DNA of 28,560 bases, taken from assembly GCA_029555925.1 (NCBI GenBank), contig JAKPQU010000307.1, positions 1 to 28,560 on the forward strand. The letters are read 5' to 3'. How positions within the stretch are numbered: the stretch's first letter is position 1; each line of letters starts with the position of its first letter. The DNA comes from Bacillota bacterium. GTDB taxonomy: Bacteria; Eremiobacterota; SpSt-956; JAKJGF01. Positions 1,914-17,661 of this stretch are shown piece by piece. The notes beneath the pieces were generated by a model that saw nothing but the letters and a program-made list of their open reading frames with translations, did no database searches and had not been told where the DNA came from. Position numbers and translations under genes: made by a program.

Positions 1914-1944
1914 CCCGTCACCCGTCACGCGTTGCACGTCACGA
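1914..1944 (-). repeat. CGTRACG heptad array 1 (nuoD-nuoH spacer)
   Basis: On the minus strand this reads ATCGTGACG, then four roughly heptameric units (CGTGACG, TGCAACG, CGTGACG, GGTGACG) and a closing GG. It is strongly GC-rich inside an AT-rich spacer. It runs in the same sense as the nuo transcript and is a degenerate member of the array family seen at ten other places in this window. Confidence 0.8.
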
Positions 1945-1974
1945 TATTTTTTTATCTAAAACTTTGTTTTTGAT

Positions 1975-2072
1975 CGGGATTTTCGGGATTAAAGAATTAC
2001 CGGGATTAGAAATTTTAAGTAAAGTAATTCTATTTATCATCCTGGTAATCCCATAAATCCTATAAATCCTGG
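1975..2072. repeat. Imperfect inverted repeat built from CGGGATT / AATCC units
   Basis: Three CGGGATT units on the plus strand face three AATCC(C/T) units. The inner arms TTACCGGGAT (1997-2006) and ATCCTGGTAA (2039-2048) pair over ten bases with one mismatch, giving a hairpin with a 32-base loop. A related block without the facing arm is at 5934-5969. It sits in the nuoD-nuoH spacer beside heptad array 1. Function is unknown; an RNA hairpin that tunes expression of downstream nuoH is possible. Confidence 0.6.
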
Positions 2073-2078
2073 TCAAAA

Positions 2079-3185
2079 TTATCTGTCTACATCACCTAAA
2101 ATAAAATCTATACTTCCTATAATGGCAGGAAGATCTGCCATAAAGCAATCCTTCATAACCGCTTCTGCTATGCTCAGATTACAAAAGCTTGGAGCTCTTA
2201 CCTTGAACCTGTAAGGTTTTGTTCCTCCGTCACTTACGATATAAACACCTAATTCTCCTCTGGGGCTCTCTACTCTGACATAGATTTCTCCTTTCGGAGG
2301 AGCTATTTTTTTAGGTATTTTTGCCATAATATCTCCTGCTTTGAGTTTTTCCAGAGCCTGTTCCACTATTCTTGAACTCTGAATTATCTCATTATATCTT
2401 ACCATGTACCTGTCAAATACATCCCCTTTTTCTCCTGCAGGTATTTCAAAATCATAATGTTCATAACCGCAGTAAGGGTCATCTTTTCTTACATCCCATT
2501 TTACGCCTGACCCTCTCAGCATGGGGCCGCTGAGTGCATAACTTATGGCGAGTTCCGGAGGTATAATACCTATATTTTTTGTTCTCTGTTGAAATATAAC
2601 GTTTCCTGTAAGGAGCTCATCATAATCTTTGAGTTTTTCTTTAACTATCTTCAAGAAATTCTTTGTTTTCTGAGGAAAATCTTCAGGTAAATCTCTTGCC
2701 ACTCCGCCTATTCTCAGGTAGTTATAGGTCAGTCTCTGACCAGATATGTATTCAAACAGATTGAGTCCTTCTTCTCTTTCTCTGAATGCATAAAGCATAG
2801 GCGTAAATGCACCCAGTTCGAGTCCGAAATTTCCCCACCACATAACATGGCTTACAATTCTGTTTAATTCGAATATTATTACCCTTATTGTCTGTGCTCT
2901 TTCGGGAACTTCTATATTCATAAGCTTTTCCATGGCAAGCACATATGGCAGTTCATTGCACATGGCGGCAAGATAATCCATTCTGTCAAGATATGGTATA
3001 ACCTGAATGTATTCCCTGTTCTCCAGAATTTTTTCTGTGGAACGGTGTAAATATCCCACATGAGGGACAGCCCTTACAACGATTTCGCCGTTCAATGTAA
3101 GAAGGAGTCTCAAGACACCGTGAGTGGCAGGGTGCTGTGGCCCCATGTTTACAAGAAATTCTTCTGTTTTTAAAATATCACTCAT
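2079..3185 (-). CDS. nuoD: NADH-quinone oxidoreductase subunit D (NuoD, 49-kDa type)
   Basis: This 368-residue protein is a normal-length stand-alone NuoD, not the NuoCD fusion of enterobacteria. It carries the N-terminal NMGPQHPATHGVLRLLL motif (about residues 13-29), which lines the quinone head-group pocket, and GYLHRSTEKI near 44-53. Further motifs are MDYLAAMCNELPY, GGVARDLPEDF and GVKWDVRKDDPYCGYEHYDF, and it ends with the typical DFILGDVDR. It lacks the nickel-ligand cysteine pairs of the related [NiFe]-hydrogenase large subunits, as expected for NuoD. The ATG overlaps the nuoC stop codon by four bases (ATGA), so translation is coupled. Its usual partner NuoB is not encoded beside it. 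Confidence 0.97.
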   Translation of the reverse strand: MSDILKTEEFLVNMGPQHPATHGVLRLLLTLNGEIVVRAVPHVGYLHRSTEKILENREYIQVIPYLDRMDYLAAMCNELPYVLAMEKLMNIEVPERAQTIRVIIFELNRIVSHVMWWGNFGLELGAFTPMLYAFREREEGLNLFEYISGQRLTYNYLRIGGVARDLPEDFPQKTKNFLKIVKEKLKDYDELLTGNVIFQQRTKNIGIIPPELAISYALSGPMLRGSGVKWDVRKDDPYCGYEHYDFEIPAGEKGDVFDRYMVRYNEIIQSSRIVEQALEKLKAGDIMAKIPKKIAPPKGEIYVRVESPRGELGVYIVSDGGTKPYRFKVRAPSFCNLSIAEAVMKDCFMADLPAIIGSIDFILGDVDR

Positions 3186-3721
3186 AGAGAATCTCCTTTT
3201 TTAGCCTTCATCAATTCTTTTTTATCTGGTGACGGTAATACTTCCGTACTGTGAAAATCTTTCCTCAGGGGATGGCCGGTAAAATCTTCAGGTAAAAGGA
3301 TTCGTCTCATATCGGGATTGCCTTCGAAATTAACGCCGAAGAGGTCGAAAATTTCCCTTTCATGCCATTCTGCCGCTTTCCATATGTCGCACAGAGACGG
3401 CAATGAAGGGTTTTCTCTTGATAGGGATACTTTAACACAGAGACGATGTTTTTTTTCTAGGGAGCAGAGATGATAGACTATTTCAAATTTATCCGGCGGA
3501 TAGTCCACTCCTGTCTGACACATAAGATAATTGAAATCAAAGACAGGATTTTCTTTAAGTTCTTTCATTACCTTTATTATATGTTTACTGTCTACAAGAA
3601 TTGTATTATCAAAACCTTCGGTTTTTATTTCCATGATTTCCTGACGAAAGCATTCATCTAGTTTATTTATCAGTTCCTGTCCTGTCAAATTTTCACCTTC
3701 TTCTATGATATATCGTGACAC
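3182..3721 (-). CDS. nuoC: NADH-quinone oxidoreductase subunit C (NuoC, 30-kDa type)
   Basis: This 179-residue protein shows the family core FDFNYLMCQTGVDYPPDKFE and the strongly conserved AAEWHEREIFDLFGVNFEGNP followed by RRILLPEDFTGHPLRKDF, which place it as the 30-kDa subunit of the peripheral arm of complex I. The only plausible start giving a full N-terminal helix is a GTG at 3719-3721. That codon lies inside a GC-rich heptad repeat, so the first codons come from repeat sequence. The next in-frame ATG would remove 29 residues. Its end overlaps nuoD by four bases. NuoB normally lies between nuoA and nuoC, but here only 20 bp separate them. Confidence 0.95.
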   Translation of the reverse strand: MSRYIIEEGENLTGQELINKLDECFRQEIMEIKTEGFDNTILVDSKHIIKVMKELKENPVFDFNYLMCQTGVDYPPDKFEIVYHLCSLEKKHRLCVKVSLSRENPSLPSLCDIWKAAEWHEREIFDLFGVNFEGNPDMRRILLPEDFTGHPLRKDFHSTEVLPSPDKKELMKAKKGDSL

Positions 3722-3732
3722 GTGACGCGTTG
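3714..3732 (+). repeat. CGTRACG heptad array 2 (short), overlapping the nuoC start
   Basis: The plus strand reads ATCGTGACACGTGACGCGTTG: two and a half heptads. Its ATCG head faces the nuoC coding sequence, and the nuoC GTG start codon is formed by repeat bases (3719-3721). The array fills nearly all of the 20-bp gap between nuoA and nuoC. Confidence 0.75.
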
Positions 3733-3741
3733 TTCCTGACT

Positions 3742-4188
3742 TTACGGCCCTGTCATCCTTTTAACTTCTCTATGTTCTTTTTCCCAGGCCAGTCCTCCTT
3801 TTTTCCAGGCGTAAATGAGGCCTATAATCAGAATAAGCAGAAAGATGAGCATTTCGGTAAAAATAAACAGTCCGCTTACTTCTTTCGGTAAAATCTCCAT
3901 ACCTTTGTAAACGAGTCCGTTATTTTTGATGTCCCTGAATACCTGTGCCCATGGTATGAGATAAACAACTTCTACGTCAAACAGTAAAAATACCAGAACA
4001 TAGGTATAAAACCTGAAATTATACTGAACCCAGCTTTTGCCTATTGTTTCAGGGCCACATTCATAGGTGTCGAGTTTTATATCATTTGGCTTATGGGGCC
4101 TTATAAGCGTGGCCAGTCCCATACCGGTGAGTCCCATGGCAGCACCTGCCAGGAGGAAAAGAAAGACAATATTATAATTGTTTTCCAT
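3742..4188 (-). CDS. nuoA: NADH-quinone oxidoreductase subunit A (NuoA)
   Basis: This 148-residue protein has three membrane helices. The diagnostic loop KLDTYECGPETIGKSWVQYN is followed by FRFYTYVLVFLLFDVEVVYL, which contains the conserved acidic pair in helix two. NuoA is the small membrane subunit beside NuoH and the quinone site. It is the first nuo gene in this cluster. An AGGAGA ribosome binding site lies about eight bases before the ATG. The N terminus is slightly longer than in many homologues, and the C terminus has a basic tail. Confidence 0.96.
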   Translation of the reverse strand: MENNYNIVFLFLLAGAAMGLTGMGLATLIRPHKPNDIKLDTYECGPETIGKSWVQYNFRFYTYVLVFLLFDVEVVYLIPWAQVFRDIKNNGLVYKGMEILPKEVSGLFIFTEMLIFLLILIIGLIYAWKKGGLAWEKEHREVKRMTGP

Positions 4189-4236
4189 AGTTACTGTTCT
4201 CCTGTTTTTTTACTTTAGTAAATAATTACTACAAAA

Positions 4237-4262
4237 TTAAAAAAAGTCCTCCAGGTTTTTTT
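4237..4262 (-). terminator. Possible weak hairpin terminator downstream of the cyclophilin gene
   Basis: On the minus strand a run of seven A, a short CC-TGGA-GG stem-loop and a run of seven T form an A/T-flanked hairpin 35 bases after the cyclophilin stop. The GC core is only two base pairs, so termination would be inefficient. It could equally act in either direction or be a chance structure. Confidence 0.25.
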
Positions 4263-4266
4263 AAAA

Positions 4267-4315
4267 AGTGAAAAGTGATATATTTCTCTTCACTTTTCAC
4301 TGCTCACTTTTCACT
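4267..4315. repeat. AGTGAAAAGTGA inverted and direct repeat
   Basis: AGTGAAAAGTGA (4267-4278) is followed by its exact reverse complement TCACTTTTCACT twice (4290-4301 and 4304-4315). This gives a 12-bp perfect hairpin with an 11-base loop plus a 14-bp-period tandem copy. The second and third units overlap the end of the cyclophilin reading frame, supplying its last five codons and stop. It is a different repeat family from the GC-rich heptads. Confidence 0.75.
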
Positions 4316-4779
4316 ATTTTAATTTCTTTTATTTTATCTCCCTTTTTTATTTTCATTACTGTATCCATGCCTGAGATGACATGGCCGAAGACCGTATGTT
4401 TTCCGTCCAGGTGGGGCTGAGGAGAGTGAGTTATGAAAAACTGGCTTCCTCCCGTATCAGGCCCTGCATTTGCCATAGAGAGGGTTCCTGTCAGGTGTTT
4501 TCTTTTATTTATTTCACATTTAATCTGGTATCCGGGGACTCCTGTTCCCGTGCCGTGGGGACATCCTCCCTGAATCATGAAATTATCTATTACCCTGTGA
4601 AAGGTAAGGCCGTCATAGAATTTCTTTTTTATTAAATCAGTGAAATTCTTTACGGTATTCGGTGCGTCGTTTTTAAAAAGCTCCAGGACTATGTCGCCTT
4701 TATCCGTTACAATTGTTACCTGTGGCAGATTGCCTTCAGCTTTGTTATTTTCTTTTTTCTTTTTCAGAAAACCAAACAT
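4297..4779 (-). CDS. Cyclophilin-type peptidyl-prolyl cis-trans isomerase (cytoplasmic)
   Basis: This 160-residue protein has the cyclophilin active-site blocks [13 protein letters not shown] (residues 60-72, catalytic Arg62), [16 protein letters not shown] (101-116) and [10 protein letters not shown] (123-132). The tryptophan of human cyclophilin A is leucine here, as in many bacterial members. It catalyses proline cis-trans isomerisation in protein folding. It has no signal peptide; the N terminus is lysine-rich. I chose the ATG at 4779 because a GAGGTGA ribosome binding site sits five bases ahead. The open frame extends ten codons further upstream, but that stretch contains the binding site itself. 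The last residues, VKSEQ, are encoded by a short repeat. Confidence 0.93.
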
Positions 4780-4838
4780 AAAAATCACCTCTTTTGTATA
4801 TAAAATCACCTGTCATTTTCAAACATTTTCAAACACGA

Positions 4839-4889
4839 TCTTCTCCTTCTTTTTCTTCTCTCTTCTCTCTTTTTTTTCCTTCTTTTTCT
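4839..4889. other. 51-base uninterrupted pyrimidine tract (plus strand)
   Basis: All 51 bases are C or T on the plus strand, mostly C/T-alternating with short T runs. The tract lies in the divergent spacer between the cyclophilin gene and the AAA-ATPase remnant. Such polypurine-polypyrimidine tracts can adopt triplex DNA. In the cyclophilin direction it would form a purine-only leader. No coding role is seen. Confidence 0.6.
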
Positions 4890-4899
4890 ATATTTTATT

Positions 4900-4908
4900 T
4901 GTTATAAT
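4900..4908 (+). promoter_or_regulatory. Possible extended -10 promoter (TGTTATAAT)
   Basis: TG-N-TATAAT is an exact extended -10 element. No -35 match precedes it because that space is the pyrimidine tract. It would start transcription near 4915 toward the AAA-ATPase remnant and be followed by a GGAGG site and a three-codon mini-frame. Confidence 0.35.
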
Positions 4909-4957
4909 TAACGGTGGAGGTTATCTAAATGTTTGATTAATAAAGAGGTGGGGTTTT

Positions 4958-5336
4958 ATGAAGAGAAAGAAAATACCATATGGCATATCAGATTTTGACC
5001 GTAATAAGAAGAAAGAATTGTTATTATGTTGATAAGACGCGATTTATAGAAAATATTGAAGACAGTCCTCCCTATCTGTTTTTCATCCGTCCCAGACGTT
5101 TCGGCAAATCCCTCTTTCTGTCTTTGATGGAATGTTATTATGACATAAAAAGAAAGGATGACTTTGAAGAGATATTTTCCGGGACTTATATTTATGATAA
5201 TCCTACAGAAGAAAGAAATAAATACTTAATACTATACTTTCGCAGAATTTTGAAAAACCGTTGTCCCATAACGGCATCCCTCGCTGATTCCCTGCAAGGT
5301 AGAATAAGGCTTTGTTTAAAAAGTGCAAAAGTATAG
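4958..5336 (+). pseudogene. AAA-ATPase-like / PD-(D/E)XK nuclease family protein, frameshifted and truncated remnant
   Basis: The true start is the ATG at 4958, behind an AAAGAGGTGG site, reading MKRKKIPYGISDF. That frame hits a stop at about 5030. The matching continuation is in the +1 frame: KNCYYVDKTRFIENIEDS, then YLFFIRPRRFGKSLFLSLME, whose RRFGKS region is the Walker A-like segment of this family (DUF1703/AAA-ATPase-like plus PD-(D/E)XK nuclease type). A frameshift therefore lies at about 5000-5016. Family members run to about 500 residues; this one stops after about 110, where a MITE-like element begins at 5232 and supplies the final codons and stop. The nuclease half is missing. These genes are often multicopy and mobile, so decay is not surprising. 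Confidence 0.8.
5232..5336 (+). mobile_element. MITE-like element, copy 1 (105 bp)
   Basis: It has terminal inverted repeats CTATACTTTCGCA (5232-5244) and TGCAAAAGTATAG (5324-5336, one mismatch). The two ends are distinguishable: the left continues GAATTTTGAAAAA and the right, read inward, continues CTTTTTAAACAAAG. The same two end types occur in reverse order in copy 2 at 17717-17820. The interior differs between copies, and there is no transposase. No clear target duplication is visible at this copy. It interrupts the AAA-ATPase remnant. Confidence 0.65.
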
Positions 5337-5390
5337 TTATAATTATATTATGGATTATAGTGTATTTCATAACTTATTAGAATTTAAGTC

Positions 5391-5422
5391 GTCGTGACGC
5401 GTAACGCGTGACGCGTGACGGG
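5391..5422 (+). repeat. CGTRACG heptad array 3, forward half
   Basis: Four heptads (CGTGACG, CGTAACG, CGTGACG, CGTGACG) are followed by GG. It faces an opposite-strand array 13 bp further on, so the pair forms an imperfect inverted repeat. It lies in non-coding debris between the ATPase remnant and the PIN-toxin remnant. Confidence 0.85.
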
Positions 5423-5434
5423 TTTAATCCATGG

Positions 5435-5465
5435 GCATCACGCATTACGCTTTACGCATTACGAG
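5435..5465 (-). repeat. CGTRACG-like heptad array 4, degenerate reverse half
   Basis: On the minus strand it reads CGTAATG, CGTAAAG, CGTAATG, CGTGATG: four heptads with one or two changes each, in opposite orientation to the array at 5391-5422. The two halves could pair as a hairpin with a roughly 13-base loop. Confidence 0.65.
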
Positions 5466-5558
5466 GTCATTATTTATGGTTAGTTATGAAACTAACTATA
5501 ATAAATTTCGTGGTTTTCTCATAGGAAAATATTTTAATTTATTAAAGGATTTTGTATT

Positions 5559-5633
5559 ATGAAAAAATTACAGTTGTATATTGAAACATCTGGAGGTGTT
5601 ATACTATGGAGAATAAAGAATCAAAGGCAATGA
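5559..5633 (+). pseudogene. Probable N-terminal remnant of a PIN-domain (VapC-like) toxin
   Basis: The frame opens MKKLQLYIETS, which matches the usual start of a PIN-domain RNase, where the first acidic residue follows a LYIETS or IYLDTS strand. It then runs straight into the ribosome binding site and start of the next small gene and ends after 24 residues. The remaining roughly 120 residues of a PIN protein are missing, as if an internal deletion had fused the toxin start to the antitoxin leader. The match is short, so this rests on recognising the N-terminal pattern beside an antitoxin-like gene. Confidence 0.4.
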
Positions 5634-5785
5634 TCGATGTATTGAAATGGCGTGAAAAAGTAAATGAAGAGCTATCTGAAATGACTGATGAAGAAAGGAT
5701 TGAATATTTTAAGAATACAAATAAATTAATGGAACAGTATGGCTTTAAATTTAAGAGGATTATAAAAGAGAAGTGCCTTTTATAA
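5606..5785 (+). CDS. Small acidic helical protein, probable orphan antitoxin of a PIN-type toxin pair
   Basis: This 59-residue protein starts at an ATG seven bases after a strong GGAGGTG site. It is highly charged and predicted helical. The pattern EELSEMTDEERIEYFKNTNK resembles the MTxEExxxYxxxxA-type small proteins that accompany PIN-domain toxins in many bacteria. A toxin N-terminal remnant overlaps just upstream, supporting a decayed toxin-antitoxin locus in which only this partner is intact. It is too short and unconserved for a firm family call. It could alternatively be a non-functional leftover. Confidence 0.5.
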   Translation: MENKESKAMIDVLKWREKVNEELSEMTDEERIEYFKNTNKLMEQYGFKFKRIIKEKCLL

Positions 5786-5814
5786 TTAAAGAGTATAGGA
5801 ATTTTCATTTTTTA
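5786..5814 (+). repeat. Partial copy of the 84-bp hairpin repeat
   Basis: TTAAAGAGTATAGGAATTTT followed by CATTTTTTA closely matches the start of the 84-bp repeat unit at 28371 (TTAAGGGTACAGGAATTTTC). Only about 29 bases are kept, directly after the small antitoxin-like gene. Confidence 0.45.
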
Positions 5815-5817
5815 TAG

Positions 5818-5873
5818 GGTGTCAGGTGCTGGAGGGCAGGTGTTGGGTAATTATAAACCAAAAACCTGACACC
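5818..5873. repeat. 10-bp perfect inverted repeat (GGTGTCAGGT / ACCTGACACC)
   Basis: The arms at 5818-5827 and 5864-5873 are exact reverse complements with a 36-base loop. The loop holds a further GGCAGGTGTTGG, a near-copy of the left arm. There is no U-tract, so it is not a clear intrinsic terminator. Confidence 0.55.
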
Positions 5874-5933
5874 TGAAATCCAAAACTCAATTATAACCTG
5901 TAATTAGAGTTTAAAAATTTGCCCGATGAAAAA

Positions 5934-5969
5934 ATCCTGGCAATCCTGGAAATCCCGGTTAAATCCATG
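5934..5969 (+). repeat. AATCCTGG / AATCCCGG unit block
   Basis: Four near-repeats of (A)ATCC(T/C)GG with A-rich joins, related to the unit pairs at 1975-2072. It ends seven bases before the -35 box of the first wecA promoter. Confidence 0.5.
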
Positions 5970-5975
5970 TCCTGT

Positions 5976-6004
5976 TTGACAAATTTTCTCTCCGGTGATA
6001 AAAT
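5976..6004 (+). promoter_or_regulatory. Sigma-70-type promoter P1 for wecA and the downstream atp block
   Basis: A perfect -35 TTGACA (5976-5981) is followed after a 17-base spacer by -10 TAAAAT (5999-6004, five of six). Transcription would begin near 6011, giving a leader of about 210 bases to the wecA ATG. It is the best promoter match I see in the window. Confidence 0.6.
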
Positions 6005-6056
6005 ATTAAAACTTTTTACATTCACTCATCTGTTTTGTGAAAACTTACAAAAGGAA

Positions 6057-6085
6057 TTGAATATTTCTCTGTAGAATGATATAAT
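6057..6085 (+). promoter_or_regulatory. Sigma-70-type promoter P2 for wecA and the downstream atp block
   Basis: -35 TTGAAT (6057-6062, four of six), a 17-base spacer and a perfect -10 TATAAT (6080-6085). The start would be near 6092, leaving a leader of about 130 bases. Two promoters in tandem fit a constitutively expressed operon. Confidence 0.5.
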
Positions 6086-6222
6086 AACGTGGGTATATGG
6101 AAAAATTTATTTTTCAAGTAAATATTGTGATTGGTTAGATAAATGTTTTTTTGAGAGTAAAGGGGAGACATTGAAGATGCTCTGAACATTCTGTGTGTTA
6201 TATATAAGGAGGCTTATTATTT

Positions 6223-7197
6223 ATGCTGAGTGCAAGTTACGGGGTTACCTTTATGGTAGCCCTTCTTATAAGCTGTGCCCTTACCCCTCTTGTCAGAAAA
6301 TTTTCCTTCTGGGCCAATATAGTTGCAGCCCCGAGTCCGAGAAAAGTCCATAAAGTTCCTATGCCCCAGGCAGGAGGTCTTGCCGTTTACGGCGGTTTTG
6401 TTCTTACCCTTGTAGTGGTGTTTTATTTCGGCATTATTGACAGAAATATTCTTATGACAAGACTCTGGACACAGTTACTCGGTCTTTTTATCGGAGGTAC
6501 TTTTATACTTATCCTGGGAGTTTTTGATGATAAATATGCTCTTCCTGCAAAGGTAAAACTGGCAGGACAGATTATAGCAGCATTTATTTTAGTTTTATTC
6601 GGGATTAAAGTGGAATTTTTAAGCAATCCTTTTAACGGTATGTTTTTTCTCCCTTCCTGGATGAGTGTGGGGCTTACAGTACTGTGGGTCGTAGGGCTTA
6701 CAAATGCTCTTAATCTCATAGATGGTCTGGATGGGCTCCTGGCAGGTGTGACGGGAATCTCCTGTTTTGTTTTATTTATGATTGCCATACAGAAGGGACA
6801 GATCCTTGTGGCTATTTTACTTCTTGCTTTAATGGGCAGTTGCTGCGGATTTTTAAGATATAATTTCAATCCAGCAAAGATCTTTATGGGTGATACGGGA
6901 TCGTTGTTTTTAGGCTATATGCTTGCCGCTCTTTCCATAGTAGGTGCTCTTAAAAGTACAGCCACTCTTGCCTTCGGTGTGCCTATTCTTGTATTTGCTT
7001 TGCCTATTTTCGATACTACCTCTGCAATCGTGAGAAGATTTTTGAAAGGAAGACCCATTTTCCAGCCTGATAAAGAACATTTTCACCATCAGTTACTGAA
7101 CCTTGGTTTAAACCACAGACAGGCAGTGCTCTTTATTTATCTTATCAGCGGATTTATGGGGGTTGCCGCCCTGGCATTAAATTACGTAGCCCGTTAA
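6223..7197 (+). CDS. wecA: Undecaprenyl-phosphate GlcNAc-1-phosphate transferase (WecA/TagO/Rfe family)
   Basis: This 324-residue membrane protein with about ten helices belongs to the polyprenyl-phosphate sugar-1-phosphate transferase family. The Mg-binding FDDKYALPAKVKLAGQ block has its DD pair at residues 102-103. NLIDGLDGLLAG lies at 164-175, FMGDTGSLFLGY at 221-232, and the HFHHQLL histidine motif at 286-292. These make it a WecA-type enzyme loading a sugar phosphate onto undecaprenyl phosphate, rather than MraY. It starts envelope polysaccharide synthesis. The ATG is preceded by a good AAGGAGG site and two promoters. The wecB gene follows after four bases, so the pair probably makes a GlcNAc/ManNAc-containing glycan. 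Confidence 0.92.
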   Translation: MLSASYGVTFMVALLISCALTPLVRKFSFWANIVAAPSPRKVHKVPMPQAGGLAVYGGFVLTLVVVFYFGIIDRNILMTRLWTQLLGLFIGGTFILILGVFDDKYALPAKVKLAGQIIAAFILVLFGIKVEFLSNPFNGMFFLPSWMSVGLTVLWVVGLTNALNLIDGLDGLLAGVTGISCFVLFMIAIQKGQILVAILLLALMGSCCGFLRYNFNPAKIFMGDTGSLFLGYMLAALSIVGALKSTATLAFGVPILVFALPIFDTTSAIVRRFLKGRPIFQPDKEHFHHQLLNLGLNHRQAVLFIYLISGFMGVAALALNYVAR

Positions 7198-7201
7198 CAT
7201 T

Positions 7202-8347
7202 ATGAAAAAAATAAAAATTATAACTATATTCGGAACAAGACCTGAAGCAGTTAAAATGGCTCCTGTAGTTTCAGCTTTAAATAATTTCCCTGACGAGATC
7301 TTATCTAAAGTTCTGGTTACGGCACAGCACAGGGAAATGCTGGATCAGTGTTTGAATTTTTTTTCTATAAAACCTGACTATGACCTGGATATCATGCAGG
7401 ACAGGCAGAGCCTTTCGGAAATAACATGCCGTGCCCTTACAGGGGTGGAAGATGTATTAAAACAGGAAAAACCTGATATGATTCTTGTTCAGGGCGATAC
7501 TACGACAGTTTTTTCCGCCAGTCTTGCAGCTTTTTATCAGCAGATAAAAGTAGGACATGTCGAAGCAGGTCTCAGAACAGATGATATATACAATCCTTTC
7601 CCGGAAGAGATTAACAGACGCCTTGCAAGTGTAATATGTAACCTCCATTTTGCCCCTACCATTCAGGCAAAAAGTAATCTGTTACATTGCGGTATAAATT
7701 CCGGTATATTTATTACAGGTAATACCGTTATAGACGCTCTTTTTTCCATATTAAAAGTTACAGACGAAAAAAATTATCTTCCTTCTCATATATCACAGAG
7801 TAAAAACAGGATAATCTTTGTGGAAACCCACAGAAGAGAAAACTGGGGAGAACCTATGGAGAATATCTGCAGGGCTCTTTTTCAGATTATAAATGATTAT
7901 AAAGATACGGAAATAGTCTTTCCTGTACACAGAAATCCTGTAGTAAGAGAAACTGTGTATCCTTTACTTGAAGGACATGACAGAATCCACCTTATAGAAC
8001 CGATGGATTATCCTGCTCTGATTAATCTGCAGAAGAAAAGTTTTATTATACTGACAGATTCTGGAGGTATTCAGGAAGAAGCTCCTTCTATGGGGAAACC
8101 TGTTCTGGTATTAAGGAGAACTACCGAAAGGCCTGAAGGTGTTCAGAGAGGAACGGCAAAACTGGTCGGTACGGAAAGAGATAATATTTACAGGGAAGCC
8201 GCCAGATTACTTGATGACAGTGACGAATATAACAGAATGAGCAGGGCTATAAATCCCTACGGTGATGGCCATGCAGCCGGAAGAATAGTCGATGCGATAA
8301 GATATTATTTCGGTTTTATTTCGAGTCCTCCCGCGGATTTTGAATAG
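7202..8347 (+). CDS. wecB: UDP-N-acetylglucosamine 2-epimerase (non-hydrolysing)
   Basis: This 381-residue protein interconverts UDP-GlcNAc and UDP-ManNAc in the cytoplasm. Family motifs are complete: GTRPEAVKMAP (11-21), QHREML (42-47), QGDTTTV (97-103), VEAGLRTDDIYNPFPEEINR (120-139), THRRENWG (209-216), DSGGIQEEAPSMGKP (286-300) and RRTTERPEG (305-313). Asp99, Glu121, Glu135 or Glu136, and His210 correspond by alignment to the catalytic acidic residues and histidine of the E. coli enzyme. The start is four bases after wecA with no clear ribosome binding site, which suggests translational coupling. Its place just ahead of the atp genes matches a clostridial-type order. Confidence 0.95.
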   Translation: MKKIKIITIFGTRPEAVKMAPVVSALNNFPDEILSKVLVTAQHREMLDQCLNFFSIKPDYDLDIMQDRQSLSEITCRALTGVEDVLKQEKPDMILVQGDTTTVFSASLAAFYQQIKVGHVEAGLRTDDIYNPFPEEINRRLASVICNLHFAPTIQAKSNLLHCGINSGIFITGNTVIDALFSILKVTDEKNYLPSHISQSKNRIIFVETHRRENWGEPMENICRALFQIINDYKDTEIVFPVHRNPVVRETVYPLLEGHDRIHLIEPMDYPALINLQKKSFIILTDSGGIQEEAPSMGKPVLVLRRTTERPEGVQRGTAKLVGTERDNIYREAARLLDDSDEYNRMSRAINPYGDGHAAGRIVDAIRYYFGFISSPPADFE

Positions 8348-8374
8348 ACACTTTTTATTGATAAAATAAAGACA

Positions 8375-8551
8375 ATGAATTATATAAAATTATTTTTTCG
8401 TACCAGAACAAAATTTTTCGTATCCCTGTTGCTTGGAACATTAACCGGTATGTATATAGATGAAAAATTTAACACTTATCCCGTATTTATTATATTTTTT
8501 ACTTTTATCGGGATTGTAACAGGGTACAGAATTATATACATGAAAAAATAG
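8375..8551 (+). CDS. atpZ: AtpZ-type small F1Fo-associated membrane protein
   Basis: A 58-codon frame reads MNYIKLFFRTRTKFFVSLLL, then GTLTGMYIDEKFNTYPVFII and a second hydrophobic segment ending in a basic tail. Two membrane helices are joined by a short loop with the family pattern G-x-x-x-G-x-x-x-D and a TYP turn. This fits the AtpZ / putative F0F1-ATPase subunit family that sits ahead of atpI in many atp operons. Members are proposed to aid rotor assembly or Mg/Ca transport. It lies between wecB and atpI, exactly where atpZ is expected. There is no strong ribosome binding site. The call depends on pattern and position. Confidence 0.8.
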   Translation: MNYIKLFFRTRTKFFVSLLLGTLTGMYIDEKFNTYPVFIIFFTFIGIVTGYRIIYMKK

Positions 8552-8562
8552 CACCCTTATCT

Positions 8563-8594
8563 TCGCGTCATGCGTCACGCGCAACGCGTTACGA
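8563..8594 (-). repeat. CGTRACG heptad array 5 (atpZ-atpI spacer)
   Basis: On the minus strand it reads ATCGTAACG, CGTTGCG, CGTGACG, CATGACG, CGA. Its ATCG head ends 17 bases before the atpI ATG. If an upstream ATG at 8570 were used, the repeat would be translated as a 14-residue extension, but the ribosome binding site favours the later start. Confidence 0.8.
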
Positions 8595-8611
8595 TAACAA
8601 GGAATAAAGTA

Positions 8612-8983
8612 ATGAGTGAGAATCTTTTAAGAAGAATTTTTTTTAAAGCCATTATAGTTGCATTATTCTTTTTACTGTTCTCTCTTATGTTAAAAGATAA
8701 CTTTATATTATGGGGAATTTCTGCAGGAATTTTTATGAGTATATTGAATTTCTCTTTTCTCTATATGTTTTCGAGAAATATTCTTGAACATAAAAAAAAG
8801 ATATGGCGGGTCTTTTATATAGGACTGGTTCCGGCAAAATTAATTTTGCTGGGAGGATTTATGTGGATGATAGTGAAATTTACTGAATTGAATGCCATAT
8901 CTTTTCTTGTCAGTATAAATTTTGTGCTCTTTTTATTTCTATGGGAAAGTTTTGTTGTAAATAGAAATATAGTGAAAGTGTGA
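8612..8983 (+). CDS. atpI: ATP synthase protein I (AtpI)
   Basis: This 123-residue protein has four hydrophobic segments with the basic first loop typical of AtpI/UncI, which helps assemble the c-ring. I chose the ATG at 8612, eight bases after AAGGA. The open frame reaches back to 8570, but those 14 codons are repeat sequence (heptad array). AtpI is poorly conserved in sequence; the assignment rests on size, topology and position between atpZ and atpB. Confidence 0.8.
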   Translation: MSENLLRRIFFKAIIVALFFLLFSLMLKDNFILWGISAGIFMSILNFSFLYMFSRNILEHKKKIWRVFYIGLVPAKLILLGGFMWMIVKFTELNAISFLVSINFVLFLFLWESFVVNRNIVKV

Positions 8984-9975: not shown

Positions 9976-10014
9976 ATTTATATGTGGAATCGTAACACGT
10001 AACGCGTAACGCGA
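9976..10014 (+). repeat. CGTRACG heptad array 6 with extended head (atpB-atpE spacer)
   Basis: The head ATTTATATGTGGAAT (9976-9990) is followed by CGTAACA, CGTAACG, CGTAACG and CGAGG. The head closely matches those before arrays at 14007 and, on the other strand, 16313-16327, so the repeat unit is longer than the heptads alone. It lies 62 bases before atpE. Confidence 0.85.
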
Positions 10015-10868: not shown

Positions 10869-11404
10869 GCGATAGACTCATTGCCAGGCGATATGCAGGA
10901 GCATTTTATTCAGTCTGCCTTGAACAGAATATAATAAACCAGGCGGAAAAGGAATTAATTTATTTTACAGGTATATTGAATGGAAATGAAGATTTAAAAA
11001 AAATACTCCTTTCTCCCCGTATAACTTCTTTTAAAAAAAAGGAAATTCTCTATAGTATATTCGGTGCAGGTATGTCTCGGGTAACCTTTGACTTTATATC
11101 TTTACTGGTTGATAAAAAGAGAGAAAATCTTTTTTTCTGTATAGGGGAAATTTTTTCTCAGATTATTCTGGAAAACAGTAATATTGTAATCGCTTATGTT
11201 ACATCGGCTTTTCCCCTTGGAGTTCAGGAACAGAATGGACTGCAGTCAGCCCTTTCGGCCAGAACCGGTAAATTTGTTAAGCTTGAGATTACTATTGATC
11301 CTTCTATAATAGGTGGTTTAATAGTCAGGATTGAAGACAAGATTTATGATGGCAGTGTGACCGGTCATTTAAAGAGAATAGAACATGAAATGTCCGGTAT
11401 ATAA
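10865..11404 (+). CDS. atpH: ATP synthase F1 subunit delta
   Basis: This 179-residue protein of the delta/OSCP family joins the peripheral stalk to the top of the alpha3beta3 head. The N-terminal RRYAGAFYSVC segment and the C-terminal GKFVKLEITIDPSIIGGLIV, then IEDKIYDGSVTGHLKRI, are family hallmarks. The last of these is the best conserved part of the family. The ATG overlaps the atpF stop. The stop codon itself lies in the first bases of a degenerate copy of the 84-bp hairpin repeat. Confidence 0.95.
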   Translation: MSDRLIARRYAGAFYSVCLEQNIINQAEKELIYFTGILNGNEDLKKILLSPRITSFKKKEILYSIFGAGMSRVTFDFISLLVDKKRENLFFCIGEIFSQIILENSNIVIAYVTSAFPLGVQEQNGLQSALSARTGKFVKLEITIDPSIIGGLIVRIEDKIYDGSVTGHLKRIEHEMSGI

Positions 11405-11513
11405 TTTAACGATTTTAGATGAAAATTATTAAAGAAGAAATGTTCATTTTTAATTGTGTAAAATAAGGCTTGGAATGAAAATTATGTAGAAGCAACTTAT
11501 CTAAATAATTTAT
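11401..11513. repeat. Two degenerate copies of the 84-bp hairpin repeat (atpH-atpA spacer)
   Basis: Bases 11401-11430 (ATAATTTAA, then TTAGATGAAAATTA) and 11438-11513 (TTCATTTTTAAT, GTAAAATAA, GAATGAAAATTATGTAGAAG, TTATCTAAATAATTTA) follow the order of blocks in the perfect tandem repeat at 28371-28538, with scattered changes. The hairpin arms are partly kept. It fills the spacer between two essential atp genes. Confidence 0.65.
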
Positions 11514-11543
11514 GTGGGATTTTGGAAAGAAGGTGTTTTTAGT

Positions 11544-13058
11544 TTGAGTATAAGGCCTGAAGAAATTACGGCAATTTTGAAGGCACAGATTGCCAATTAC
11601 CAGACTGACCTTGAAGAGGTAGATGTAGGCACTGTTATTCAGGTAGGAGATAATATTGCCCGTATTCATGGACTTACAGCAGTTCAATCGGGAGAAATGC
11701 TGGAGTTTCCCGGAAATATTTATGGCATTGCCCTTAACCTGGAAGAAGATAATGTGGGATGTGTCATACTCAGTGATACAAAAGAAATACAGGAAGGGGA
11801 TATAGTAAAAAGAACAGGGAAAATTATACAGGTTCCTGTAGGAGAAGCTCTTAAAGGAAGAGTTGTAAATCCCCTGGGACAGCCTCTCGACGGTAAAGGT
11901 CCTGTATACACGGAAAAGTTCAGAACCATAGAATATGTGGCTCCGAAGGTTATAGAACGTCAGCCTGTAAAACAACCGCTTCAGACAGGCCTGAAGGTAA
12001 TAGATGCCCTTGTACCCATAGGAAGAGGACAGAGAGAACTTATAATAGGTGACCGTCAGACAGGTAAAACTGCCATTGCTATCGATACTATTATAAATCA
12101 AAAAACGGAAAATGTTATATGTATATATGTTGCAATAGGACAGAAAACCTCTACAGTCGCCCAGGTTATAGATGTTTTGACTCAGCAGGGAGCAATGGAC
12201 TATACAATAGTAGTGGTTGCAAACGCAAAGGATCCTGCTTCTTTATTATATATTGCTCCTTTTGCAGGCTGTGCTATGGGAGAGGAATTCAGGGATAACG
12301 GTAAAGATGTGCTTATCATATATGATGATCTTACAAAACATGCCCAGGCCTATAGAGAAATATCACTTCTTCTCAGAAGACCTCCTGGACGAGAAGCATA
12401 CCCGGGAGATGTATTTTTCCTTCATTCCAGACTCCTGGAAAGAAGTTCAAAACTCAGTGAGGAAAAAGGAGGAGGCTCCATGACCGCCCTGCCTATCAAT
12501 GAAACACAGGTAGGTGATGTGTCAGCCTATATTCCTACAAATCTTATTTCAATTACAGACGGCCAGATAATTCTTTCTACAGATATGTTCTATCAGGGCA
12601 TACGTCCTGCTATGGATGCCGGTCTTTCTGTATCAAGAGTGGGAGGCTCTGCCCAGATAAAGGCCATGAAAAAGGTTGCAGGTCCTCTGAGACTTGAACT
12701 GGCCCAGTACAGAGAACTGGCTGCTTTCTCAAAATTCAGTTCTGATCTTGATAAAGCCACACAGGCACAGCTTACAAGAGGTGAACGTATTCTTGAATCC
12801 CTGAAACAGAAACAGTTTCAGCCCATACCTGTAGAAAAGCAGGTAGCCATCATATATGCTGCAGCCCATGGTTATTTAGATGATATTCGCCTTATAGATG
12901 TAGAACGTTTTGAAAAAGAGTATCTTACTTATCTGGAAGAAAAACACATGGCACTTCTGAGTAATATAAAAGAAACAGGGGATTTTTCTGATGAGCTGGC
13001 CCAGGAATTTGATAAAGTTCTGGAAGAATTTAAAAAGATTTTTGTAAAGAGTGAGTAA
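11544..13058 (+). CDS. atpA: ATP synthase F1 subunit alpha
   Basis: The start is the TTG at 11544, eight bases after AAGAAGGTG, giving [20 protein letters not shown], the usual alpha N terminus. The open frame extends ten codons upstream but runs through the binding site. The 504-residue protein carries the P-loop GDRQTGKT (169-176), the Asp pair in [14 protein letters not shown] (258-271) and the arginine finger Arg365 in [10 protein letters not shown]. It forms the non-catalytic nucleotide sites of F1. The final 24 bases are duplicated 82 bp downstream, on the other side of a heptad array. Confidence 0.98.
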
Positions 13059-13140
13059 TAGTGTCGTAACGCGTAACGTGTAACGCGTTACGCGAAGATA
13101 GCCCGGTAATGGCCAGAAGATTTTAGTAAAGAGTGAGTAA
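13035..13140 (+). repeat. 24-bp direct duplication of the atpA 3' end flanking a heptad array
   Basis: Bases 13035-13058 (the last codons and stop of atpA) and 13117-13140 match at 23 of 24 positions. Between them lie the heptad array and about 22 bases of other sequence. The second copy ends four bases before the atpG ATG. This looks like a target or slippage duplication made when the spacer element arrived. Confidence 0.85.
13064..13094 (+). repeat. CGTRACG heptad array 7 (atpA-atpG spacer)
   Basis: It reads CGTAACG, CGTAACG, TGTAACG, CGTTACG, CG. The inversion of the last unit makes CGTAACG-like and CGTTACG arms that can pair locally. It begins five bases after the atpA stop. Confidence 0.85.
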
Positions 13141-13143
13141 AAG

Positions 13144-14001
13144 ATGCCAAAAGCGAGAGAAGTAAAGAAACGAATAAAAGGTGTTGAAAATATACAGGAA
13201 ATAACAAGAGCTATGAAACTTGTGGCAGCAGCAAGGATAAAAAAGGCAGAAAATGCCGTACTGGCCTGCAGACCTTATGCTGAAAAATTAAAATCCATGA
13301 TGGTCAGGGTATTTAACAGGCTGGATGAGAATTTTGCCCACAAATTGATGATAGAAAGAGATGTGAAAAAAATTGCTCTTGTACCTGTAACAGGTGATAA
13401 AGGCCTCTGCGGTGCTTTTAATAATAATATTTTCAGACTTACTGAAACAATTATGGGAACCTATCCGGATAAAGAATTTTTATTTATCCCTGTCGGTAAT
13501 AAATCTCATAAATTTTATTTGAAAAAGAAATTACCTGTGCTTATGTCCTTTCCTCACCTTGTAGAAATTAACTATTCCGGTTGTAGAGAAATGGGTGAAG
13601 TTTTGACAGATATGTTTCTGGCAGGAGATTTTGATGAGCTTTATTTCATATATGGCAAATATATTTCTACAATGAAACAGGAAAACACTTTATTTAAACT
13701 TTTACCTGTTTCATTTCCGTCAGAAAAAATCACCGATATCAGTGATTCTATTCTTGAGCCTTCTCCTGCCGAATTGCTTGATTATATTATTCCAAAATAT
13801 ATATATGTTCAGATCTATCAGATGATTTTAGAATCTGTTGCATCGGAACTGGGTGCCAGGCTGATGGCTATGACAAATGCAACGGATAATGCAGATGAGC
13901 TTATAAGGGCTCTTACATTGAAGTTCTACAGAGCCCGTCAGGAAGCTATTACAACAGAAATAATAGAAGTTACGAGCGGTTCTGAATCTATCAAACGATG
14001 A
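13144..14001 (+). CDS. atpG: ATP synthase F1 subunit gamma
   Basis: This 285-residue central rotor shaft protein starts with the N-terminal helix EVKKRIKGVENIQEITRAMK (6-25), then KLVAAARIKKAE. The Rossmann-like middle holds GDKGLCGAFNNN (84-95), and the C-terminal helix holds SELGARLMAMTNATDNADEL. All three are family signatures. The ATG is preceded by GAGTGAG, only a modest ribosome binding site, supplied by the duplicated atpA tail. A 238-bp spacer containing two opposed heptad arrays separates it from atpD. Confidence 0.96.
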   Translation: MPKAREVKKRIKGVENIQEITRAMKLVAAARIKKAENAVLACRPYAEKLKSMMVRVFNRLDENFAHKLMIERDVKKIALVPVTGDKGLCGAFNNNIFRLTETIMGTYPDKEFLFIPVGNKSHKFYLKKKLPVLMSFPHLVEINYSGCREMGEVLTDMFLAGDFDELYFIYGKYISTMKQENTLFKLLPVSFPSEKITDISDSILEPSPAELLDYIIPKYIYVQIYQMILESVASELGARLMAMTNATDNADELIRALTLKFYRARQEAITTEIIEVTSGSESIKR

Positions 14002-14006
14002 CAGGG

Positions 14007-14050
14007 ATTTATATGAGAATCGTGACGCGTAACGCGTAACGCGTGACGGG
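14007..14050 (+). repeat. CGTRACG heptad array 8 with extended head (after atpG)
   Basis: The head ATTTATATGAGAAT (14007-14020) is followed by CGTGACG, CGTAACG, CGTAACG, CGTGACG and GG: the most regular array in the window. It begins just after the atpG stop and faces the reverse array at 14190-14220. Confidence 0.9.
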
Positions 14051-14116
14051 ATGGGACAAAATCACAGATTATCCGGTGTCGTATTTATCGCTGGAACCAC
14101 TAAGCTTTAAATAACT

Positions 14117-14130
14117 CGCCCTGGAGGGCG
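14117..14130. other. Perfect GC hairpin CGCCCT-GG-AGGGCG
   Basis: A six-base-pair all-perfect stem with a two-base loop sits at the centre of the 140-bp segment between the two opposed heptad arrays in the atpG-atpD spacer. There is no T-run after it, so it is not a standard terminator. Confidence 0.5.
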
Positions 14131-14189
14131 TTACTTCATATTTTGTATGGTCAGAAGAAAATATATCTTCAGAGGAAATATCGTTACCC

Positions 14190-14220
14190 CGCGTTACGCG
14201 TCACGCGTCACGTGTTACGA
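14190..14220 (-). repeat. CGTRACG heptad array 9 (before atpD)
   Basis: On the minus strand it reads ATCGTAACA, CGTGACG, CGTGACG, CGTAACG, CGG. Its head ends 19 bases before the atpD ATG. Together with array 8 it forms inverted ends around a 140-bp segment. Confidence 0.88.
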
Positions 14221-14236
14221 TAGTTAGGAGTGTTAA

Positions 14237-15697
<1,461 letters not shown>

Positions 15698-15749
15698 AGG
15701 GGACACGGCTAGAGTAATGAAGATTAGACCAGTCGGAGGTTAGGATTAA

Positions 15750-16163
15750 GTGGCGGAGAAACAACTGACTCTGGAGATAGTGACTCCGGAAACAATTAAA
15801 TTCAGCGGAGAAATAAAAATTCTGGTGACTCCCGGGCCTTTAAGCAGTCTGGGAATTTTGCCGGATCATATTTCTTTACTTACTACTGTTCTTACAGGAG
15901 AAACCATGGTAAGACTTCCTGATAACAGGGAGATTTATTTTGCAATGAGAGAAGGCTTGCTGGAGGTAAATTCAAACCATATAACCCTTCTTGTTGACGA
16001 GGCTGCAGAATGTTCTGATATAAACATAGAAGAAGATAAGATAGTTTTAGAAAAGATTCGTTCTTCTTTAACGGAAACTGTTGATAATCTGACCAGGGAA
16101 AGATTAAAAAAAGAATTACATTATGTTCTTGCCAGAATCAATATTTGCTCAAAGAACAACTGA
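15750..16163 (+). CDS. atpC: ATP synthase F1 subunit epsilon
   Basis: The start is a GTG at 15750, with GGAGGT nine bases ahead. The 137-residue protein has the N-terminal beta-sandwich (LTLEIVTPETIKFSGEI, then TPGPLSSLGILPDHISLLT, which holds the LGILPxH motif) and a C-terminal helical pair rich in Glu and Arg. Epsilon links the shaft to the c-ring and can inhibit ATP hydrolysis. It is the last atp gene; murA follows after a 176-bp spacer. Confidence 0.94.
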   Translation: MAEKQLTLEIVTPETIKFSGEIKILVTPGPLSSLGILPDHISLLTTVLTGETMVRLPDNREIYFAMREGLLEVNSNHITLLVDEAAECSDINIEEDKIVLEKIRSSLTETVDNLTRERLKKELHYVLARINICSKNN

Positions 16164-16173
16164 AACCCACGGT

Positions 16174-16187
16174 ATTTATATGAAAAT
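16174..16187 (+). repeat. Solo or partial array head (ATTTATATGAAAAT)
   Basis: It differs at one position from the array head at 14007-14020 but is not followed by heptads. It faces the reversed head at 16313-16327, so the atpC-murA spacer may hold one element with two inverted heads and a single surviving array. Confidence 0.4.
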
Positions 16188-16289
16188 AATAGAAGCTTAT
16201 GCTTCACTGTTTGCTAATTCTCATATCTGGTTGTGACCCTACCGGTCATACCTGTTTGTAGAGTTACTGCATGAATGTTAATCAAACCT

Positions 16290-16327
16290 CGCGTCACGCG
16301 TCACGCGTCACGATTCTAATATAAATT
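16290..16327 (-). repeat. CGTRACG heptad array 10 with extended head (before murA)
   Basis: On the minus strand the head AATTTATATTAGAAT (16327-16313) is followed by three perfect CGTGACG units and CGAGG. The heptads end 25 bases before the murA ATG, and the head overlaps the region of its ribosome binding site. Confidence 0.87.
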
Positions 16328-16339
16328 AAGGAATTGACT

Positions 16340-17599
16340 ATGGAAAAATTAATGGTTACAGGTGGAAAAAAATTAAAGGGCAGGCTCATGGCAAACGGAG
16401 CAAAAAATGCCGCCCTCCCTATTATGGCTGCATGTATTCTTGTAAAGGGAGATATTTTACTCAGGAGAATCCCTGATATTACAGATGTATGGGTTATGAT
16501 GGATCTTTTAAGAGAACTGGGTGCGAAAGTATCGTATGATAAAAAAGAAGAATCTCTTTTTATTAATACAGATGGTGTATCGTCAACCCGTGCTCCCTAT
16601 CATCTTGTCAGAAAGATTCATGCTTCTTTTGACGTAGCAGGAGCTTTACTTGCAAGATTTCTCTGTGCAGAAGTTCCGCTTCCAGGGGGATGTGTACTCG
16701 GTACAAGAGCAGTGAATTTTCATTTGGATGGTTTTCGTCTTCTTGGAGCAGATGTTTCTCTCGAACATGGTTACGTGAAAGCTACAGCCAGAAAACTGCA
16801 GGGAAATAGAATTTATGTAGGCAGGGCAAGTGTAGGAGCTACCAAAAATATTATGATGGCAGCAACCCTTGCACAGGGAACTACTATACTGGAAAATGCT
16901 GCCAAAGAGCCGGAAGTTACTGATCTTGCCGGTTTTTTAAATGCTGCAGGAGCTAAAATTTATAGCCTGAATGACGGAACTATCAGAATAGACGGAGTTT
17001 CGCAACTCAGGGGAATTGAATATGACATAATCTCTGATCGCATAGAAGCAGGTACCTATTTACTTGCCGGCGCTATTACCCGCGGAGATATTACAGTCGA
17101 AGGTATTTCTTCTCAATTTCTGGAAGCTTTTTTAAGCAAACTTGAAAGTGCCAATATAGAAGTTATAAGAGGTAAAAATTATATCAGGGTAAAAGGTAAA
17201 AGACGTGTATATCCTGTTGATATAATTACTTCACCTTATCCCGGATTTCCTACAGATTTACATGCTCCTATGGCAACATTTCTTACAATCTCAGATGGTA
17301 CAAGTTTTATTGAAGAAACTATATTCGATGCCAGATTTAACTATGTTGATGAATTGAGAAGACTCGGTTCAAAGATAAGGCTCGTAGACAGGACGGCTGT
17401 TATTACAGGTGTTGATAAACTGACAGATGCACCGGTAGAAGCTTCTGACCTGAGAGCAGGCGGGGCACTTGTTCTTGCAGGTCTGGTTGCCTGCGGTACC
17501 ACTGAAATTACAGGTATTGAATATATAGACAGAGGATATAAATCCATAGAACATAATCTTAACAGCCTTGGTGCTCAGGTAGTAAGAGTTAAAAATTAA
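16340..17599 (+). CDS. murA: UDP-N-acetylglucosamine 1-carboxyvinyltransferase (MurA)
   Basis: This 419-residue enzyme makes the first committed step of peptidoglycan synthesis, transferring enolpyruvate to UDP-GlcNAc. NGAKNAALP holds Lys22 and Asn23. The catalytic cysteine is Cys118 in PLPGGCVLGTR, equivalent to E. coli Cys115, so fosfomycin sensitivity would be expected. Arg123, the DLHAP aspartate, FDARF, DLRAGGALVLAG and IDRGY match other active-site positions. One oddity: the E. coli MRAS motif (Arg91) reads IHAS here. The start is the ATG at 16340 behind AAGGA; a TTG two codons earlier is less likely. An atpC-murA neighbourhood is known from Firmicutes. Confidence 0.95.
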   Translation: MEKLMVTGGKKLKGRLMANGAKNAALPIMAACILVKGDILLRRIPDITDVWVMMDLLRELGAKVSYDKKEESLFINTDGVSSTRAPYHLVRKIHASFDVAGALLARFLCAEVPLPGGCVLGTRAVNFHLDGFRLLGADVSLEHGYVKATARKLQGNRIYVGRASVGATKNIMMAATLAQGTTILENAAKEPEVTDLAGFLNAAGAKIYSLNDGTIRIDGVSQLRGIEYDIISDRIEAGTYLLAGAITRGDITVEGISSQFLEAFLSKLESANIEVIRGKNYIRVKGKRRVYPVDIITSPYPGFPTDLHAPMATFLTISDGTSFIEETIFDARFNYVDELRRLGSKIRLVDRTAVITGVDKLTDAPVEASDLRAGGALVLAGLVACGTTEITGIEYIDRGYKSIEHNLNSLGAQVVRVKN

Positions 17600-17630
17600 G
17601 GAATGAAAATTTATTAATTGTCTCTTTCCT

Positions 17631-17661
17631 CGCGTCACGCGTTACGCGTTACGCGTCACGA
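17631..17661 (-). repeat. CGTRACG heptad array 11 (after murA)
   Basis: On the minus strand: AATCGTGACG, CGTAACG, CGTAACG, CGTGACG, CGAGG. It is identical in heptad order to array 8. This is the last array in the window; none occurs in the bam-lpx block. Confidence 0.88.

Follow-up and report, generated by a model that had tools for sequence, protein, structure and literature searches.

Intergenic CGTRACG heptad arrays of contig JAKPQU010000307.1 and a dispersed class of heptads with an STRA core

The 28,560-nt contig JAKPQU010000307.1 (assembly GCA_029555925.1; hereafter the window) contains, in the gene spacers from 1.9 to 17.7 kb, ten arrays of the 7-bp unit CGTRACG and one CGTRATG-type arm. 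On a slight balance of probability, we read these arrays as the variant now present in the window organism of a heptad class that is intergenic, dispersed and lineage-wide, with the core [CG]T[AG]A (STRA) once per unit in the form NSTRANN. A dispersed, partly palindromic heptad class is real in the window and in one close relative, the metagenome-assembled genome UR.bin48 (G001), and its sequence rule is firm: it holds for most, not all, G001 heptads. In the usual G001 array, three to five NSTRANN units follow one another in the same orientation; some arrays also have an inverted partner arm and could fold into a hairpin. The arrays seem to resemble copied and overwritten repeats more than tuned ATP synthase switches.

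Heptad arrays in the window and the NSTRANN rule

A search of the window with the two-unit pattern CGTRACGCGTRACG (up to two mismatches) gave 47 matches, compared with 0.02 expected from 100 shuffles, and all eleven arrays or half-arrays listed in a preliminary description of this DNA were present. Among periods 4 to 21, period 7 gave 11 stretches with a score of at least 10 (0.2 in 20 shuffles); the remaining periods gave 0-2 stretches each, save 14 (5) and 21 (3), both multiples of 7. The arrays are thus tandem heptanucleotide repeats, with intergenic head-to-tail 7-bp units at several loci. The preliminary description had assigned them to a single CGTRACG family with a fixed unit count. Ten arrays belong to that family, whereas the arm at 5435 is of the CGTAATG/CGTAAAG type; with imperfect units counted, the unit number was four in eight of the eleven, three at 9991 and 16290, and two at 3714, whereas runs in G001 extend from 3 to 20 units. 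The common plan described for the array ends applies to most arrays, which have AT in front and CGAGG, CGAAG or GG behind. Part of the non-heptad flank is also common to the window arrays (for example, 14007-14043 versus 16326-16290, 37 bp at 92%).

The placement originally given for the arrays, all between genes and mostly within the ATP synthase operon, required adjustment. Nearly all are intergenic, but the array at 3714 adjoins or overlaps what may be the start of nuoC, and at 8563 the array overlaps with the initial ATG of the long atpI open reading frame (ORF), for which we placed the likely start at 8615. Six of the eleven (8563, 9991, 13065, 14021, 14190 and 16290) are within the atpI-murA stretch. 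No array follows position 17661, as previously noted; however, this is uninformative because little inter-gene spacer is present there, about 268 nt plus a 190-nt tail after 18062 against about 2.7 kb before it (a figure that excludes the 463-nt spacer with the 17631 array; two of the gene limits used are our own reading). The proposal that the arrays tune ATP synthase subunit ratios was not borne out: such arrays occur throughout the sampled G001 DNA, and seven of nine orthologous wecB-murA spacers are heptad-free, by eye, in the corresponding G001 locus (L001).

G001 was the nearest genome by AtpA (86% identical; next best 64%), and L001 can be aligned to the window between about 4.1 and 19.5 kb. 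No exact two-unit CGTRACG occurs in L001; of exact CGTRACG triples, G001 has two and the 148 other searched genomes of its phylum have none. This near-absence from G001 and the phylum genomes indicates that dense CGTRACG is, as far as our searches reach, local to the window organism. Among other heptads, AGTGARA was found in 1 of 147 genomes of the phylum of G001 (G001 itself) and GCTGAWA in 2 of 147 (G001 and G011). In another phylum, 21 of 297 genomes contained AGTGAAA, a pattern that reads the same backwards, so that the reversed control is uninformative. In both the window and L001, ppiB reads by eye as ending in heptad sequence, stop codon and final codons included; the units differ, and so does the heptad hairpin that each has at this position. 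We rejected shared array position in the two species as support, since the three L001 heptad spacers all fall among the window's 8 of 13 with a chance of about 0.2 (spacers counted by hand).

The sequence rule was characterized in a G001 sample of 80 loci (938 kb; contigs C180-239 and C260-279, taken by contig number, up to 20 kb each). Another 20 loci, selected for repeats, were excluded from these counts and, together with L001, used only for copies of the miniature inverted-repeat transposable element (MITE)-like sequence described below. Low-complexity arrays were removed prior to counting, and ORFs (at least 100 codons) were called with a simple script, not a gene finder. In the first 40 loci (497 kb), 81 period-7 arrays had a score of at least 10, compared with 1-36 for the other periods from 4 to 30, period 14 being the runner-up with 36. 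Their units were diverse and included AGTGAAA, CGTGAGA, GCTGAAA, GCTGATT and CGTRATG, among others. The full sample contained 194 period-7 arrays detected independently of sequence, and 144 of them fitted the core once per heptad in full. STRA ranked first, tied with its reverse complement, among 3,456 equally loose cores.

Positions S, T and A of the core were also the most constant within arrays. For the 170 arrays in which STRA had only one phase, units were compared with the consensus of their array and differed from it at 19 of 665 S positions (2.9%), 9 of 656 T positions (1.4%) and 4 of 653 A positions (0.6%), compared with 63/616, 59/630 and 66/630 at the three free positions (9-11%) and 60/631 at R (9.5%). 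Runs of at least three exact STRA cores numbered 198 at spacing 7 against 1-15 at spacings 4-6 and 8-13, and most had 3 (102), 4 (66) or 5 (19) units, with a maximum of 20. A stop triplet on either strand was present in 78 of 81 consensus units from the first 40 loci. With each distinct unit counted once, 32 of 35 had one, where shuffled units gave 23.5 (31 at most in 2,000 shuffles). In 800 kb of three other genomes the rule was fitted by only 2 of 14 arrays (G447), 1 of 8 (G309) and 1 of 2 (G424); because it was not seen there, we claim it for this lineage only. The period-7 arrays without an STRA core in G447 (L169-L188; the phylum of G156) had units such as AACGTTC and AAAGTTC.

Placement and proposed copying and overwriting of the arrays

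The cluster set comprised 165 clusters, 157 from the G001 sample and 8 from the window. Per kilobase of spacer, G001 clusters numbered 2.4 between convergent, 1.6 between co-directional and 0.86 between divergent genes; relative to spacers of at least 30 nt, the counts were 29/60, 88/284 and 27/93, respectively (convergent versus divergent, p = 0.017). In G001, runs were concentrated at gene 3' ends: 34 run-gene pairs started within 10 nt after a stop codon, compared with 16 in the next 20 nt; these counts tally run-gene pairs, not runs, and the runs are defined by STRA, so TAG cannot be the core.

A rival explanation is a role in mRNA, in which 3' hairpins would stabilize or process transcripts or the heptads would stop ribosomes in three frames; we consider it quite unlikely. 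Consistent with it, inverted pairs were in the +- orientation 26 times and in the -+ orientation 5 times among the 165 clusters, 18 pairs with arms up to 30 nt apart folded better than full shuffles (mean z -5.3) and, less strongly, than core-keeping shuffles (mean z -1.4), and a heptad TRA supplied the stop codon of 23 of 686 G001 genes. However, 127 of the 165 clusters were single runs, which showed no strand preference in co-directional spacers (38 versus 28, p = 0.27), four of the 18 close pairs folded worse than core-keeping shuffles, and an Rfam search of the window gave no match at the gathering threshold. Conserved pairing of the free positions between arms was rejected as weak, the values (0.52, 0.57 and 0.49) being little above those for swapped arms (0.42, 0.57 and 0.38), although hairpins form well and certain pairs clearly outfold their core-keeping shuffles. 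A three-frame stop cassette was also rejected: the single runs lacked a strand preference, and TAG was never the sole stop in a unit in the 81 arrays, although 125 of the 686 genes end in TAG.

Evidence for copying came from a 149-bp element at 5354-5502. MITEs have terminal inverted repeats and occur in many copies, and this element is likewise short and non-coding, with 65-nt arms (74% complementary, 19 nt between them). The search of 1.29 Mb of G001 gave 16 copies, of which the unselected 938 kb contributed 10. The copies are 74-82% identical and mostly have sharp ends and unrelated flanks, although the copy in L086 is without both outermost ends and that in L060 is rearranged at the left; the ends TATAGT...ACTATA are compatible with a TA target. 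Unlike MITEs, the element carries heptad arrays inside, and most heptad arrays are outside any recognizable MITE. In the G001 copies, both arms contain CGTRATG-type heptads, some of them degenerate, whereas in the window copy the right arm keeps this type and the left arm has four CGTRACG units. Replacement of the left arm by CGTRACG would be a simpler explanation than several parallel changes. The MITE-like copies and the switched left arm together suggest that these sequences spread by copying and, once, by overwriting. Moreover, 22 pairs of G001 loci shared mixed 21-mers when the MITE clusters were excluded, compared with a mean of 9.6 (maximum 18) in 200 rounds of shuffled unit order.

These findings suggest that the heptads may spread by copying of small palindromes, with transposition for the MITE-like family, and also by overwriting from array to array. 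Insertions into coding sequence would be lost, since 7 is not divisible by 3 and TRA supplies stop codons, and insertions into promoters would be disfavoured, so that arrays would accumulate immediately downstream of genes and between convergent genes. The STRA core would be kept by recognition, perhaps by the copying machinery. The earlier suggestion of a mobile palindrome family is supported in part, by the arm pair in the MITE-like element, the unit order shared in G001 and the sparsity in divergent spacers.

Several results weigh against our favoured interpretation, a dispersed class spread by copying. The reversed-letter control core gave 33 runs at spacing 7 in G001, which means that the rule has exceptions among the heptads, and 50 of the 194 arrays fitted it incompletely. 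We infer the spread of arrays in the window organism from its relative G001, and the evidence for overwriting is a single element. No transposase was tied to the heptad arrays. Across the 165 clusters there was no general target-site duplication beyond the control, and repeated DNA was present on both sides of only 10 of 157 G001 clusters, so that the larger repeated element round each array expected of a MITE is missing for heptad arrays overall; on at least one side the figure was 57 of 157, against 56 of 204 heptad-free control spacers. Local slippage could explain some arrays. The near-invariance of S, T and A suggests a function, for which simple selfish DNA would have no need.

Heptad repeats are widespread in bacteria and without an explanation for the number seven or for the letters. 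In a lineage whose many arrays follow, for the most part, one simple rule with otherwise drifting letters, the choice among slippage, mobility and recognition becomes a testable question, and a local variant inside an arm of a mobile-looking element adds to the case.

Candidate partner proteins and known heptad systems

A heptad-binding protein is the main functional rival. The heptads might be sites for a wrapping protein, with one dimer per heptad, STRA as the contact and three bases free, by analogy with Omega (ParB of pSM19035), a ribbon-helix-helix protein that is described as binding one dimer per WATCACW heptad and requiring at least four contiguous heptads for full activity (PMC9499535). 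The resemblance to the pSM19035 parS site includes unspaced 7-bp units, direct and inverted, in groups of about four with a TCAC/GTGA core, and the G001 arrays also conserve a core while leaving three bases free; parS differs in being a plasmid centromere with a known binder, and none was found here. No Omega-type protein (PF07764) exceeded the cut-off in G001 (best 26 bits versus 33.3), and of three weak matches, the two strongest look by eye like antitoxin genes with a small toxin-like ORF after each. G001 also has two RHH_1 matches, and in L212 a heptad array of four cores is located 122 nt upstream of the gene, which proves little because heptad clusters are common (157 in 938 kb). Divergent spacers, the expected place for operators, are also poor in clusters. 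For the binding-site array of the preliminary description no binder was found in G001, and we consider an Omega-like arrangement possible but unlikely. Similarly doubtful, on present evidence, is a chromosome-wide code of hundreds of arrays, with STRA fixed and three bases free, read by one trans-acting factor. If such a code existed, the factor would be an Omega-like DNA-wrapping protein, an RNA-binding protein or a copying enzyme, the arrays would be rewritten in concert, and sister lineages would keep the code and change the letters.

Pure mutation, in which slippage and unequal exchange remake the heptads without mobility or function, appears very unlikely. Heptads are the commonest long simple-repeat class in most surveyed genomes and slippage has been proposed (Mrazek et al., as related in PMC4679880), and unit number reaches 20 in G001. 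However, conservation of S, T and A by position argues against slippage as the whole story, as do the unit order common to separate loci, the inverted partner arms and the MITE-like copies.

The preliminary description had named, as one possibility, a family like the repetitive extragenic palindromes (REPs) mobilized by a REP-associated tyrosine transposase (RAYT), which is the least probable of the explanations considered and which the G001 data did not establish. The arrays resemble REPs in being small, intergenic, often beside gene 3' ends and present in many copies; REPs are not heptads, are defined by an end tag and, in the GTAG types, are tied to RAYT transposases (PMC3733652). G001 gave six Y1-transposase matches, and the four proteins scanned were IS200/IS605 enzymes. 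A seventh protein, of 256 amino acids on contig 360 (L161, 1438-2205), is RAYT-like, its sole NCBIfam match being REP_Tyr_transpos (66.8 bits, E = 1.9e-18); however, this score is below the cut-off of 80, and no run of three or more heptads occurs in the 3.2 kb around its gene or at the six Y1 loci. In the G001 loci covered, no RAYT gene adjoins heptads. Inspection by eye of ten aligned window arrays showed neither a GTAG nor a CGTC tag at one end; CGTC appears in them solely within the complement of the heptad. GTAG...CTAC palindromes numbered five in the 938 kb of G001, far from heptads. A perfect-looking palindrome, GTAGGGGCACAGC/GCTGTGCCCCTAC, is located inside the RAYT-like gene.

Tandem intergenic heptads are already known in bacteria, and no description of a core common to many different heptads was found in the open-licence literature searched. 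The TAACTGA repeats of Beggiatoaceae, Cyanobacteria and Bacteroidetes are intergenic and tandem, with 2-6 copies in the main genome, 169 direct sets and one indirect set, and rare related heptads; the stop-codon consequence in one orientation was previously noted (PMC4679880). They resemble the present arrays as intergenic tandem heptads with stops and, in our reading, fit NSTRANN as ACTGATA, but there a single unit is fixed, whereas the present arrays have many units with a common core, and inverted arms in some cases. The GGGNATC and GGGGAYT heptads of Xanthomonas and Nostoc (PMC4692102) favour four units near gene 3' ends and are also intergenic, few between divergent genes and sometimes inverted, but are G-rich and quadruplex-forming and show no STRA core. 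G-runs of three or more per unit are absent from the listed window and G001 units. In Geobacter metallireducens, four tandem heptads are found at 49 places, and another class has five at 15 of its 16 sites; the second consensus, MTYCTGA, fits the STRA rule in our reading, whereas the first, GGACCGG, does not and is found also inside genes (PMC2700814).

Mapped features and neighbouring repeats

The coordinates of the mapped features are listed in Table 1. The array at 13065 is bracketed by a 27-bp direct repeat (92.6%) of the 3' end of atpA (13035-13061 and 13117-13143), and none of the other 164 clusters had a comparable flank duplication. By eye, the array at 17633 is flanked by inverted AGGAATG...CATTCCT (about 17599-17699).

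Table 1. Heptad arrays and the MITE-like element mapped in the window
Feature	Position	Strand	Basis
CGTRACG array, 4 units (two imperfect), nuoH-nuoD spacer	1916..1943	-	pattern search and unit layout
CGTGACA-CGTGACG array, two units, adjoining or overlapping possible nuoC start	3714..3727	+	pattern search and unit layout
AGTGAAA-type heptad hairpin across 3' end of ppiB (peptidyl-prolyl isomerase)	4264..4315	.	
149-bp MITE-like element, imperfect terminal inverted repeats, enclosing heptad hairpin 5391-5463	5354..5502	+	
CGTRACG array, 4 units, left hairpin arm inside MITE-like element	5393..5420	+	
CGTAATG-CGTAAAG-CGTAATG-CGTGATG array, right hairpin arm, unit type that of G001 copies	5436..5463	-	
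CGTRACG array, 4 units (two imperfect), upstream of atpI	8566..8593	-	
CGTRACG array, 3 units, atpB-atpE spacer	9991..10011	+	
CGTRACG array, 4 units, last CGTTACG (inverted sense), atpA-atpG spacer	13065..13092	+	
CGTRACG array, 4 units, atpG-atpD spacer	14021..14048	+	
Inverted partner array, 4 units, atpG-atpD spacer	14192..14219	-	
CGTRACG array, 3 units, atpC-murA spacer	16292..16312	-	
CGTRACG array, 4 units, after murA	17633..17660	-	

Further heptads were observed outside the listed features. A degenerate palindrome with CCTGACACCTGA units at 5820-5880 of the window is another possible STRA heptad pair, and a single GCTGAAAGCTGATAGCTGA heptad run is present in a second genome of the phylum (G011, contig 169, 2960-2978). 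CGTRACG triples were found in seven IMG/VR contigs of 58-73% GC; in these high-GC sequences the heptads are located just upstream of ATG codons in L114 (761-785 and 1501-1518) and form a +- pair in L120 (4820-4882).

Other repeats accompany the heptads in both genomes. A GGGGCGAACAC-like repeat occurs in 63 places in the 938 kb of G001, sometimes between heptad arms; 20 of the 63 lie no more than 70 nt from a heptad cluster, a zone that makes up 3% of the DNA, although repeats and clusters alike are mainly intergenic. In the window, MITE-like inverted repeats with ends like TATACTTTCGC...GCGAAAGTATA at 17708-17829 and 5222-5346 have matches in G001. An ORF at 4980-5336 matches AAA-ATPase_like (PF09820; 98.5 bits, profile positions 9-86 of 201) and is cut short, adjoining an inverted repeat. 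An 84-bp tandem duplication with two perfect copies is located at the window end (28368-28546), with a diverged copy between atpH and atpA (11436-11513) and a fragment at 5782-5815, and represents another dispersed repeat family. A perfect 31-bp direct repeat (17953-17983 and 18020-18050) is located upstream of a gene that we named BamA-like by eye.

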